A DNA stretch of 64,000 bases from Planctomycetales bacterium (GTDB lineage: Bacteria; Planctomycetota; Planctomycetia; Isosphaerales; Isosphaeraceae). Shown piece after piece: positions 40,094-44,373 of the stretch; position 1 is the first letter of the stretch; each line of letters opens with the position of its first letter. A model generated the notes under the pieces. The model saw only the letters and a list, made by a program, of their open reading frames with translations. It ran no database searches and had not been told where the DNA came from. Location of the stretch: positions 1 through 64,000 of the forward strand of contig DAIDKV010000052.1 in the NCBI GenBank assembly GCA_027449865.1. The letters are read 5' to 3'. A program made the translations under genes and the position numbers.

Positions 40094-40611
40094 ATGCCGT
40101 TTCTGTTCGGTGGATCTCGTCGCGGTTGGATCTCATGGACCGCCCTGTCCGCGGGCGGTACCTTGAGCGTGATCCTATCGTTGACCTTGCGATCCTTTTC
40201 CACCGATCGGCATTCCGCCCCCCCCTCTCCTCTTTTTCGTTAGAGCCAACAAAATCCACGCCGCCGGCCCTCCCACTGGCGATCGACCCTGGTTCGGCGG
40301 ATTTGGGAATCCTAGGGCCCAGGCAACCCGCGAAAGTCGAATTCACGATCCGCAATCCGAGTTCGCGGCCGGTTGTGATTGAGCGAATCGAAACAACCTG
40401 CCCCTGCATCCAGGCGGTTCCCGCCTCCTGTTCCCTCGGGGCCGATGAGTGCAGGCCCATGACGGTCAGTTTCGATCCAGCGCACGATCCCGATTTCCGG
40501 GGTTCCCTCTCGGTTGCGATCACGGGGATCGGGGACAATGATCGGACTCTCTTCCGCTTCCGTGTGATGCTCGAAGTCCGCGACGGGAATCCTCTTCAGG
40601 AGCATCCCTGA
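40094..40611 (+). pseudogene. DUF1573 protein, split by a frameshift at a C8 run
   Basis: The ATG at 40094 follows GGGAGG and opens a frame with a membrane segment (WTALSAGGTLSVILSLTL) that stops at 40241-40243. The next frame continues without a start as a good DUF1573 domain: LGILGPRQPAKVEFTIRN, then ERIETTCPCIQAVP and FRGSLSVAI. The change falls at or close to a run of eight C at 40218-40225. One more C (or two fewer) would fuse anchor and domain into one protein of about 170 residues. DUF1573 domains are Ig-like and usually exported; the CPC motif may bind metal or partner cysteines. Either a true frameshift, a phase-variable tract or a base-count error. Confidence 0.7.
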
Positions 40612-40701: not shown

Positions 40702-41235
40702 ATGCAAGCTCGCGCGATCGACCTTTCCTGGCGCCACGTGACCTCATTCAGTTTGCTGATCCTCGCCGCTATCGTCCTGATCGGCGGACACGCTTCCGGC
40801 AACCACCTGCTCACGATCCAGGAGAAGAGGAGCATCCTGGCGGCCGGGGGAAATCCTCCCGCTACATGTTATTACATCAACAAATATTATTGAAATGCAT
40901 TGAGCGATGCGTCGACCGCGACGGCCTGCGGATCTTCGTCCTATCCCAATTGCAGTGGCGACTGTACAAATTCATGTTCAGCAATTGGTACAATGTCCTG
41001 GGGCTGCTGGGCCAGCGCCAGCGGAGCCTACAACGCTTGCCCGGCCTTCACCCAAACTCAGACAGGTATAACCTGTGGATTTCAAACGACCGGCGCAACT
41101 TGCGCGGGAGTAAATCAGCAAGGCAATGGATTTGCTTGTGCTTGTATAAATGGAGAAATGGGAACAACATCTTGCGGTTCATATAATGTTCAGCCGACTC
41201 GATTACCCAGGGCCTGTCCGGCTCAGCCTCAATAA
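40702..41235 (+). CDS. Cys-rich secreted protein with an in-frame TGA
   Basis: The ATG at 40702 has AAAGGAG seven bases upstream. Residues 13-33 are a hydrophobic export segment. A second segment, TIQEKRSILAAGG, ends in Gly49-Gly50, resembling a double-glycine cleavage site. The frame then meets TGA at 40891-40893 (codon 64) after CYYINKYY and continues uninterrupted to 41235. The downstream part is clearly protein-like, small-residue-rich and Cys-rich (12 Cys; 13 in total; 14 if TGA encodes Cys or Sec). Codon use is more A/T-ending than in the neighbours. Alternatives: nonsense mutation, selenocysteine, readthrough, or a base error. A separate TTG start at 40900 lacks a ribosome binding site. 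Confidence 0.6.
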
Positions 41236-41321: not shown

Positions 41322-41418
41322 CGAGAAGGTCAGGCTGGTACGCCGGATTGACTTGAGCTTCTTCCTTGCAGGGTCAAAACATCTCGATCGATGTCACGCT
41401 GGCTTGGGGGCGGTTCCA

Positions 41419-42546
41419 ATGTCTACCTCGATGTGTTCCTTGGTCCTGGCATTGGCGTTCGTTTCGCAAGGGCAACGAGTACCTCCGCCCGCATCGGATC
41501 GTCTCTCCGCCCGAGAGCTTCTGGATCGCTGGGCCGCCGGCGCGGACCTCATCGAATCCTATAGCCTGTCCCTGGAGCTTACCTCGAATCCCCTCGTCGA
41601 CAACAAGGACGGGAAGTGGCGGCTGCTTCCTGAACGTGAGGCGATCAAGTTCCCCGCCCGGTATTCACGGATTTATCGTAAGGGAGGCAAGCGTCGAGGA
41701 GAGTTCCAAAGGGACGAGCATGGCCATTACTCTCCGCCGATGATCTGGAACGGTAATACGGGATACCTATTCCAGCCCGACGGGACGAGCGTCCACTTCA
41801 CTCCGTTCATCATGTGGTTCGGCTCTGAACAGTACGAAGACTACGAGGCGACGTACCGGATGTTCGGCGGCTCCATCGATCGCATCCAGCTCTCGCGAGA
41901 GAGGAACACCAAATCCCTCCCGAGGGAGGGAAAGCTCCATGTTCTCGATGTTCCGGCGACCCCGAAACCGACCTCTTATAACAACTTGCACTGGAGAGTC
42001 TGGCTCGATCCGGACCGCAACTTCATGCCGGTGCGGAGAATGGAATGGTTCCAGAAGACCGTGGGCGAGGCCCTCAGCCTGGACGTGCGGAACGATCTCC
42101 GCGAGGTCGCGGCGGGGGTCTGGGCGCCGATTCGGACGGTGACCCGAGTCTACCATTCGGGCGAGACGTCGCCGCTCTACGGCAAGCATATCGGAACGAA
42201 CGAATTGAGGGTCATCGAGGATCAATCCCGCTTCAATGTCGACGTTCCCGATTCGTTGTTCGAGGTCAAGATCCCCGATGGCATGACCGTCACGGACGCG
42301 GCTCGCAACGCCGTTTACACCCAGGGCAGCGCGGATCCCGATAAGTACCTGGCCCAACTCGCGAAGGACGAGAACAGGAAGCTCGACTCGCTATCACCGG
42401 CCGACAGGTCTCCCCCCGCGATGGTTTTCATCCCGCCCGATGAGAAACCTCGCTGGTTCTGGCCTCTTTTGATTGGTATTGCCGTGGCGAGCGCGGCCGG
42501 CGCGATCTACGCCGCGCGGCGTCGGTGGGCCGTGAAGGGAGCGTAG
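41419..42546 (+). CDS. Exported LolA-like protein with C-terminal membrane helix
   Basis: About 375 residues from the ATG at 41419 (GGGGG upstream). It starts with a signal peptide (SLVLALAFVSQG). The body is an antiparallel beta-rich domain of the outer-membrane lipoprotein carrier (LolA/LolB) kind, seen in the pattern DLIESYSLSLELTSN near the start, KFPARYSRIYRKGGKRRGEF, and DLREVAAGVWAPIRTVTRVY later. A membrane helix at about 352-370 (WFWPLLIGIAVASAAGAIY) with basic end anchors it. Five bases separate it from the C39-like gene, so they form an operon. The fold call is from strand pattern only. Confidence 0.7.
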   Translation: MSTSMCSLVLALAFVSQGQRVPPPASDRLSARELLDRWAAGADLIESYSLSLELTSNPLVDNKDGKWRLLPEREAIKFPARYSRIYRKGGKRRGEFQRDEHGHYSPPMIWNGNTGYLFQPDGTSVHFTPFIMWFGSEQYEDYEATYRMFGGSIDRIQLSRERNTKSLPREGKLHVLDVPATPKPTSYNNLHWRVWLDPDRNFMPVRRMEWFQKTVGEALSLDVRNDLREVAAGVWAPIRTVTRVYHSGETSPLYGKHIGTNELRVIEDQSRFNVDVPDSLFEVKIPDGMTVTDAARNAVYTQGSADPDKYLAQLAKDENRKLDSLSPADRSPPAMVFIPPDEKPRWFWPLLIGIAVASAAGAIYAARRRWAVKGA

Positions 42547-42550
42547 AAGC

Positions 42551-43315
42551 ATGGCCCGGATACCTTTCGATCCCGTGATGACCTCTCCGACGAAGCGCGT
42601 CCCCTGGTTTGAATCCCTCGTGCCGTGCCTGGGTCTACTGGCATGGCTCGGCGCGTCATCGTTGGCGAGTTCCGCACTCGCCGCCGATCCATCGGACGTG
42701 ACCCGGCGAGATCCCTATCGAAGTTGCGGACTGAACTGCCTGGCCATCCTGGCTCATCTCCAGAATGTTCATGTCCCGCTCGGTTCGATCGAGGAACAAC
42801 TCAACCCCCGAGACAATGGCGAGTGCTCCGTGGCCGATCTCGAGCGTGCCTCTCGTACGATCGGCCTCGATCCGGTTGGAGCGCGCCTCGATTGGGACCA
42901 GTTGCCCGCGGTTCCCTTGCCCTGCATCGTTCAGCTTCGCAGCGAGACCCGCTACGCGACGGGAAGCCACTACGCGATCCTGATGGGGCTTCATCGCACC
43001 GGCGTGATCCTGCTGGATGCGCCCAGCCCCTCGATGCTCCATCCTTACGAGGAATTCCGAAGAGACTTCACGGGCGTTGTCGTTGCCTTCCCGAGCGAGG
43101 CCGAACAGAAGCGGGCATTCCTGGCGAGAGTCGGCGAGCCGCCGGCCTGGTCGGGATGGGCGGCGCGCGTCCTAATGGTTGTCGCGATTGGGGCACTCGC
43201 GTGGTGGGTCCGTCCCCGGCGTCCATCGGGAGAGGCGAGGAGGCCCGACATGGACCCGGTCGTCGAGGCGTCGCCCAGGAGTCCCGATAACGAACGCATG
43301 GAGAAAACCGGATGA
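42551..43315 (+). CDS. C39-like cysteine peptidase, membrane-anchored
   Basis: A 254-residue protein with an N-terminal hydrophobic segment (about 20-45) and a helix at about 203-222 with basic end. Between them lies a papain-like domain of the C39 (bacteriocin-processing) family: C59 in RSCGLNCLAIL, H140 in GSHYAIL and D156 in VILLDAPSP give the complete Cys-His-Asp triad. C39 peptidases usually cleave after a double glycine and are usually fused to ABC exporters; this one is free and would act outside the cytoplasm. The Cys-rich gene upstream has such a Gly-Gly site. Its stop overlaps the next ATG (ATGA). Confidence 0.88.
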   Translation: MARIPFDPVMTSPTKRVPWFESLVPCLGLLAWLGASSLASSALAADPSDVTRRDPYRSCGLNCLAILAHLQNVHVPLGSIEEQLNPRDNGECSVADLERASRTIGLDPVGARLDWDQLPAVPLPCIVQLRSETRYATGSHYAILMGLHRTGVILLDAPSPSMLHPYEEFRRDFTGVVVAFPSEAEQKRAFLARVGEPPAWSGWAARVLMVVAIGALAWWVRPRRPSGEARRPDMDPVVEASPRSPDNERMEKTG

Positions 43316-44373
43316 TGCGTCGAGGTCGCGAACGGTCCCGAGGCGTCCTTCTGTCGATCGCGATGATATCGCCCCTGGGGATCGGGGGCTGTCGAGATCA
43401 TGTCGCCGCGCCGAGGCTTCACGTCGTGTCGACTCAGCTTGACCTCGGTGTTGTCGACCCCGGTCAGCAGGCGATCTCCATCGACGTGGAGAATCGAGGC
43501 GGGATGCCGCTCCACTTCGAGAAGGTCGCCAGTAGCTGCTCATGCACGGTCGCCAATGCTCCCCGCGACCTGGCGCCCGGCGAGAAGGGCTCGATCCAGG
43601 GGACGGTTAAGGCCGGCGCGGGGCCGGGCTCCGCTCAGCTTTTCATCGGGAGCAATGATCCGAGGAAGGAGCAGGTGATCCACCTCGCCTGGTTCGGGAA
43701 GTCGACGCCTCGACTCATCCCGTCCTCGCTGGAGGTCTCGCGGCGCGCGGGCGAAATCGCGGTCCGAGAGATCGAGATCAGCTATCCCGGCGGTGCGTCC
43801 GGGGGTCATCTGGAATTCCTCGGTGCCTCGGGTCTGCCCGACTGCGTGACGGTCGAGCTGGTTTCCGAAGATCCTTATGCCATTCGAGCGATTCCCGGCC
43901 TGGGCGTCTCGCCGCGGGAGGCCCCCTCGCTCGTCGTGGGCAAGGCCCTGCTTCGCCTGACGTGCCGGATGCCCCGCGAGTCCGTACCGACGGCGACCGG
44001 GACCTTCGAGGTCCGGCAGCGGGGCGTCACCTATCCGCTCCCGTTCTCGATCGCCATCGACTCTCATGAGGGGCTGCGAGCGATGCCTCGAAGCCTTCTT
44101 TTCGCGGCGAGCAGCCCCGATCAGATGGCCAAACTCAGGCGAAGGGCGACCGTCACCGCCGACTCCTCCGAGAGCGGTCAACTCGATCTCGTTCGAAAGC
44201 CGTCTTTCCTCGATGTCCGGCTCGAGCGACTCGGCTCGTCCGATCTCCAGACGGTCGTCACGGTGCATCCTTGCGACTCCATCCCGGCCGGGTTGCGGGA
44301 GACCGAGATCGTCCTGAAGGATACGAAAGGCGCCCTGGTTCGTCTCCCGGTTTACCTGGCCTGCGATCCCTGA
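43312..44373 (+). CDS. DUF1573 lipoprotein
   Basis: A 353-residue lipoprotein: signal peptide ending in IGGC, with lipidated C27. The first 110 mature residues are a DUF1573 Ig-like domain with LDLGVVDPGQQAISIDVEN and the cysteine motif SSCSCTV. The remainder (about 140-350) shows two further beta-rich segments of the same style (PRLIPSSLEVSRRAGE, and FVLKDTKGALVRLPVYL-like strands). Start overlaps the peptidase stop by ATGA. It may present or fold secreted partners by binding exposed cysteines; that role is inferred from the Cys motif and the neighbouring Cys-rich gene. Confidence 0.85.
   Translation: MMRRGRERSRGVLLSIAMISPLGIGGCRDHVAAPRLHVVSTQLDLGVVDPGQQAISIDVENRGGMPLHFEKVASSCSCTVANAPRDLAPGEKGSIQGTVKAGAGPGSAQLFIGSNDPRKEQVIHLAWFGKSTPRLIPSSLEVSRRAGEIAVREIEISYPGGASGGHLEFLGASGLPDCVTVELVSEDPYAIRAIPGLGVSPREAPSLVVGKALLRLTCRMPRESVPTATGTFEVRQRGVTYPLPFSIAIDSHEGLRAMPRSLLFAASSPDQMAKLRRRATVTADSSESGQLDLVRKPSFLDVRLERLGSSDLQTVVTVHPCDSIPAGLRETEIVLKDTKGALVRLPVYLACDP

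Follow-up and report, generated by a model that had tools for sequence, protein, structure and literature searches.

The TGA at codon 64 of a cysteine-rich exported protein gene in the window (the whole stretch of DNA that was analysed, 64,000 nucleotides long) is probably a nonsense mutation that arose recently in the codon of a conserved cysteine. A nonsense event at this place, if real, must be recent because the cysteines and the reading frame behind it are intact. As a nonsense allele, it would be ordinary. What speaks against this reading is that one of 14 conserved cysteines has been hit in a genome that decodes UGA as selenocysteine (Sec), which is the classical signature of a Cys/Sec pair. 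Three options had been put forward in the first-pass annotation, namely Sec, readthrough and a nonsense mutation. The nonsense mutation is now the best supported of them, while the tests of Sec were mixed, being positive for the decoding machinery and the cysteine column and no better than chance for the SECIS element. In order of likelihood, the nonsense change comes first, an assembly error or strain variant second, and Sec inserted through an atypical SECIS element third. The weights given to these readings are judgements and were not computed.

A cysteine-rich gene with an in-frame TGA

The gene begins with an ATG at 40702, preceded by an AAGGAG-like ribosome site, and its frame is closed by a TAA at 41233–41235, 113 sense codons past the TGA. 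Its features are as follows:

40702–41235, forward strand: gene for a cysteine-rich exported protein, 177 codons if codon 64 is read through, with a signal peptide, a leader-like segment and a cysteine-rich mature domain
40702–40893, forward strand: product expected with UGA as a stop, 63 amino acids, consisting of the signal peptide and about 30 residues with one cysteine
40810–40842, forward strand: leader-like motif LTIQEKRSILA (codons 37–47), kept in the homologues and resembling double-glycine leaders
40891–40893, forward strand: in-frame TGA, codon 64, TGT (Cys) in both homologues; the next base is A (TGAA)
40894–40953, forward strand: stretch expected to hold a bacterial SECIS element, with no stable G[G/U] loop and GC-rich hairpins of ordinary quality only

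The TGA and the 113 further codons with coding character, as described in the first-pass annotation, were confirmed at these positions. When the frame past the TGA was searched against 99 related genomes, two homologues were found (E-values of 1e-13 and 3e-12) in a single genome belonging to the same family, and nearly all of the cysteines are shared. Judged from this alignment, the segment past the TGA is genuinely coding. Over their full length, the three sequences are 38–40% identical and have 13 invariant cysteine columns, with the TGA column counted as Cys. That column lies eight positions past the first cysteine and is occupied by Cys (TGT) in two of two homologues, so that the alignment suggested earlier as a check came out in favour of a cysteine site. 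The protein has no match in Pfam or NCBIfam, and its structure prediction from the three sequences reached a mean pLDDT of 34.5, too low to be informative.

Only C56 precedes the TGA, and twelve cysteines follow it. This count agrees with the first-pass annotation, which had also taken the even total as support for Cys or Sec at codon 64. The total adds nothing, because it follows from the same fact as the cysteine column, a random TGA often hitting Cys codons. Past the TGA, the frame is free of further stops and of frameshifts and has kept all its cysteines, which counts against a nonsense change. The intact operon genes that adjoin the cysteine-rich gene fit a recent event.

If UGA is read normally, ribosomes would halt at codon 64 and release the signal peptide with about 30 residues. 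The cysteine-rich domain would be lost or present only in traces, and a gene that had otherwise been maintained would probably be inactive in this strain. UGA is the commonest terminator of the genome (95 of 151 long frames sampled), and genome-wide reassignment of UGA was ruled out for this reason. Reinitiation past the TGA, at a TTG at 40900, was also ruled out, since a ribosome site could not be seen there and a protein started at this point would have no signal peptide. It is very improbable that the stop is leaky, with a near-cognate tRNA such as tRNA-Trp rarely reading UGA-A and traces of full-length protein being made, which perhaps would be tolerated or regulatory. The TGAA context favours readthrough in E. 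coli, and the downstream frame is preserved. Nevertheless, readthrough would put Trp or a different residue in place of the family's Cys and make the number of cysteines odd, a dedicated element was not seen, and UGA is a normal stop in this genome. When about 400 kb of the genome was scanned for other coding frames broken by a TGA, two cases came up, both resembling neighbouring genes in one frame; the filter was too strict to recover a case like codon 64.

Selenocysteine decoding and the search for a SECIS element

The host genome decodes UGA as selenocysteine. SelA (421.6 bits), SelB (369.5) and SelD (382.9) all scored above their cut-offs, as did a tRNA-Sec with a UCA anticodon (73.2 bits); the Sec-decoding trait is by convention recognised from selB together with selC (PMC1273633). 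A search of 44 genomes, the host genome counted, recovered SelB in 27. In addition, two formate-dehydrogenase-type (FDH-type) genes of the host contain a TGA in frame where the U-H site is expected:

G000:C27:25367-26284, minus strand: FDH-type Sec gene L085, in-frame TGA, GGUCU-loop hairpin 18 nt downstream
G000:C22:24472-24909: FDH-type Sec gene L087, in-frame TGA, GGUCU-loop hairpin 18 nt downstream

The GGUCU loop of both genes begins 18 nt beyond the UGA. E. coli fdhF, the sequence of which was confirmed, has the same arrangement. The G[G/U]-loop hairpins of the two host genes reach −13.0 and −24.6 kcal/mol. It had been proposed in the first-pass annotation that a genome without Sec machinery would refute selenocysteine at codon 64. 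This argument is inapplicable, because SelA, SelB, SelD, tRNA-Sec and real Sec genes are all present.

The picture is different immediately past codon 64, where the SECIS signal is no better than chance. No G[G/U]-loop hairpin with a contiguous stem occurs at 40894–40953, and with bulges allowed the best one after the TGA has −3.5 kcal/mol. The loosest published rule for bacterial SECIS elements (bSECIS) asks for a loop of 3–9 nt with a G in its first two positions, a spacing of 16–37 nt and an energy of −7.5 kcal/mol or lower (PMC13188914). Under this rule, the best hairpin with a contiguous stem has −5.9 kcal/mol, short of the threshold, and the best with bulges allowed has −9.9 kcal/mol, with an 8-nt loop, GACGGCCU, that starts with G at 26 nt. 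Among 400 Cys codons of the genome that served as background, 51% are followed by a hairpin that equals or beats this one, and 68% reach −7.5 kcal/mol. GC-rich DNA therefore meets loose SECIS rules after most Cys codons. One of the Cys homologues, which needs no SECIS element, scores −13.6 on the loose measure, better than the TGA gene. For the two FDH-type genes, the Cys codons that are as good amount to 2.5% and 0.5% (loose) and to 17% and 0.2% (strict), although these two genomic controls are related enzymes and do not sample all SECIS types accepted by the host SelB.

The hairpin CGTCG-ACCG-CGACG, described in the first-pass annotation with its loop 22–25 bases past the TGA, does exist. 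As a SECIS element it did not hold up: it is an ordinary GC-rich hairpin and a by-product of GC-rich coding sequence, since 51% of Cys codons are followed by structures no less stable than the best element past the TGA. The search of the 60 bases past the TGA gave no match beyond chance, and the genome's own element, GGUCU at 18 nt, is missing there.

It is quite unlikely, on this evidence, that SelB and tRNA-Sec decode UGA 64 through an atypical SECIS element and produce an exported cysteine-rich selenoprotein of a new family, in which Sec replaces a disulfide or redox cysteine. This reading draws on the machinery, on the FDH-type genes with in-frame TGA in the same genome, on Cys at the TGA column in both homologues and on the formal agreement with the loosest rule when bulges are allowed; some bacterial SECIS elements are known to deviate from the consensus (PMC13188914). 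It is opposed by the missing G[G/U] loop of useful stability and by a loose match that lies at background level and below that of a Cys homologue. The gene is like the Sec/Cys pairs of formate dehydrogenase (FdhA/FdhF) in its in-frame TGA, in the presence of SelA, SelB, SelC and SelD in the genome and in the Cys of its homologues. It is unlike them in that a GGU-type apical loop at 18 nt is absent, only a single sequence bears the TGA, and the product is a structural-looking cysteine-rich exported protein and not a redox enzyme. Redox enzymes with UxxC/CxxU-type motifs make up most of the known Sec families (PMC13188914); here, by contrast, seven residues separate C56 from position 64. A new selenoprotein family of this kind, in which a disulfide-rich protein exported by planctomycetes would have exchanged one structural or redox Cys for Sec and would use a SECIS element without the FDH-type GGU loop, is likewise improbable. 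If it were true, Sec would extend to disulfide-rich exported proteins and to non-GGU SECIS elements.

Weight of the conserved cysteine column

The coincidence of the TGA with a conserved cysteine is less telling than it appears. Among the one-base routes to TGA, 32–44% start at Cys codons in the TGA gene and 37–58% in the homologues, the range being set by the assumed transition rate. Cys codons thus make up one third to one half of the TGA routes, a random TGA nonsense change lands on Cys equally often, and such a landing is expected under the nonsense reading. For this reason, the cysteine column raises the odds of Sec only two- to threefold, which is weak support. Where a gene is rich in Cys, a TGA that falls on a Cys column should be treated with caution and weighs little, even in a Sec-decoding genome. 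In its single in-frame stop, the frame kept intact in relatives and the intact neighbours, the gene resembles bacterial pseudogenes and nonsense alleles. It differs from ordinary nonsense alleles in that the stop falls on a conserved Cys, though this is expected in one third to one half of TGA-creating changes here.

No second TGA-bearing member of the family was found in 99 relatives, 45 genomes of the order, 392 genomes of the phylum and the genome, viral and plasmid collections; the sets of 99, 45 and 392 genomes overlap, so that some genomes were searched more than once. In the Sargasso Sea study, a new selenoprotein was named only if two or more different sequences shared the TGA, as a guard against sequencing errors (PMC1088965). 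Here the window sequence alone bears the TGA, and by that standard the gene is a candidate only. The TGA might also be a consensus error or a minor strain variant in the assembly, with the population sequence coding for Cys. The genome is a draft of 278 contigs with an estimated contamination of 3.3%, one substitution suffices, and the rest of the gene is intact. Consensus substitution errors are, however, rare at normal coverage, and this origin is unlikely.

Third-position GC content (GC3), a feature absent from the first-pass annotation, was considered as a way of dating the stop. It is 0.71 before the TGA and 0.45 after it, compared with 0.72–0.75 in the homologues. GC3 begins to drop near codon 51, ahead of the TGA, and for this reason the drop cannot be taken as decay behind the stop and was rejected as evidence of its age. 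The GC3 of the mature cysteine-rich domain (40894–41232) is patchy and as low as 0.15, while that of the homologues is near 0.7. The low values are possibly due to recombination or low expression.

Gene neighbourhood and leader motif

The gene order DUF1573, cysteine-rich gene, 397-aa gene, C39 peptidase, DUF1573 is common to the three loci. In the window, the neighbours are:

40132–40611, forward strand: upstream gene for a DUF1573 protein; same arrangement at both homologous loci
41353–42546, forward strand: downstream gene encoding 397 aa, unmatched in Pfam and NCBIfam, with conserved synteny at the homologous loci
42551–43315, forward strand: peptidase C39 domain protein, exported or membrane-bound
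43312–44373, forward strand: second DUF1573 protein, a Cys form; other members of the family are selenoproteins

The DUF1573 (OS_HP2) family is known to include selenoproteins, which have a UGC motif (PMC13188914). Its members flank the TGA gene, but the host matches are all Cys forms, and the TGA gene is unrelated to DUF1573. The OS_HP2 selenoprotein model has 11 matches in the genome, all uninterrupted.

A syntenic search with the 397-aa downstream gene gave two more loci (G007 and G034). The cysteine-rich gene was seen at neither: one contig stops short of it, and the other shows none. At G034:C11:1421-2338 (L035), the homologue of the 397-aa gene has an internal TAA, and no cysteine-rich gene was seen upstream; this locus may possibly be another copy of the gene cluster in decay.

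A double-glycine-like leader, [LVI][ST]xx[ED]xxx[IVL]x[GA], lies directly behind the signal peptide in six planctomycete cysteine-rich exported proteins, among them those at 40810–40842 of the window and at L014, L011, L036 and L050. The motif was chosen after the sequences had been seen; random stretches of 40 aa contain it in 0.36% of cases. In the window, a gene for a C39-type peptidase lies close by (42551–43315), and the L014 and L050 loci apparently have one as well. The closeness of such peptidase genes to leader-bearing genes suggests that these proteins may be exported by the Sec secretion pathway and that the leader may then be cleaved outside the cytoplasm.
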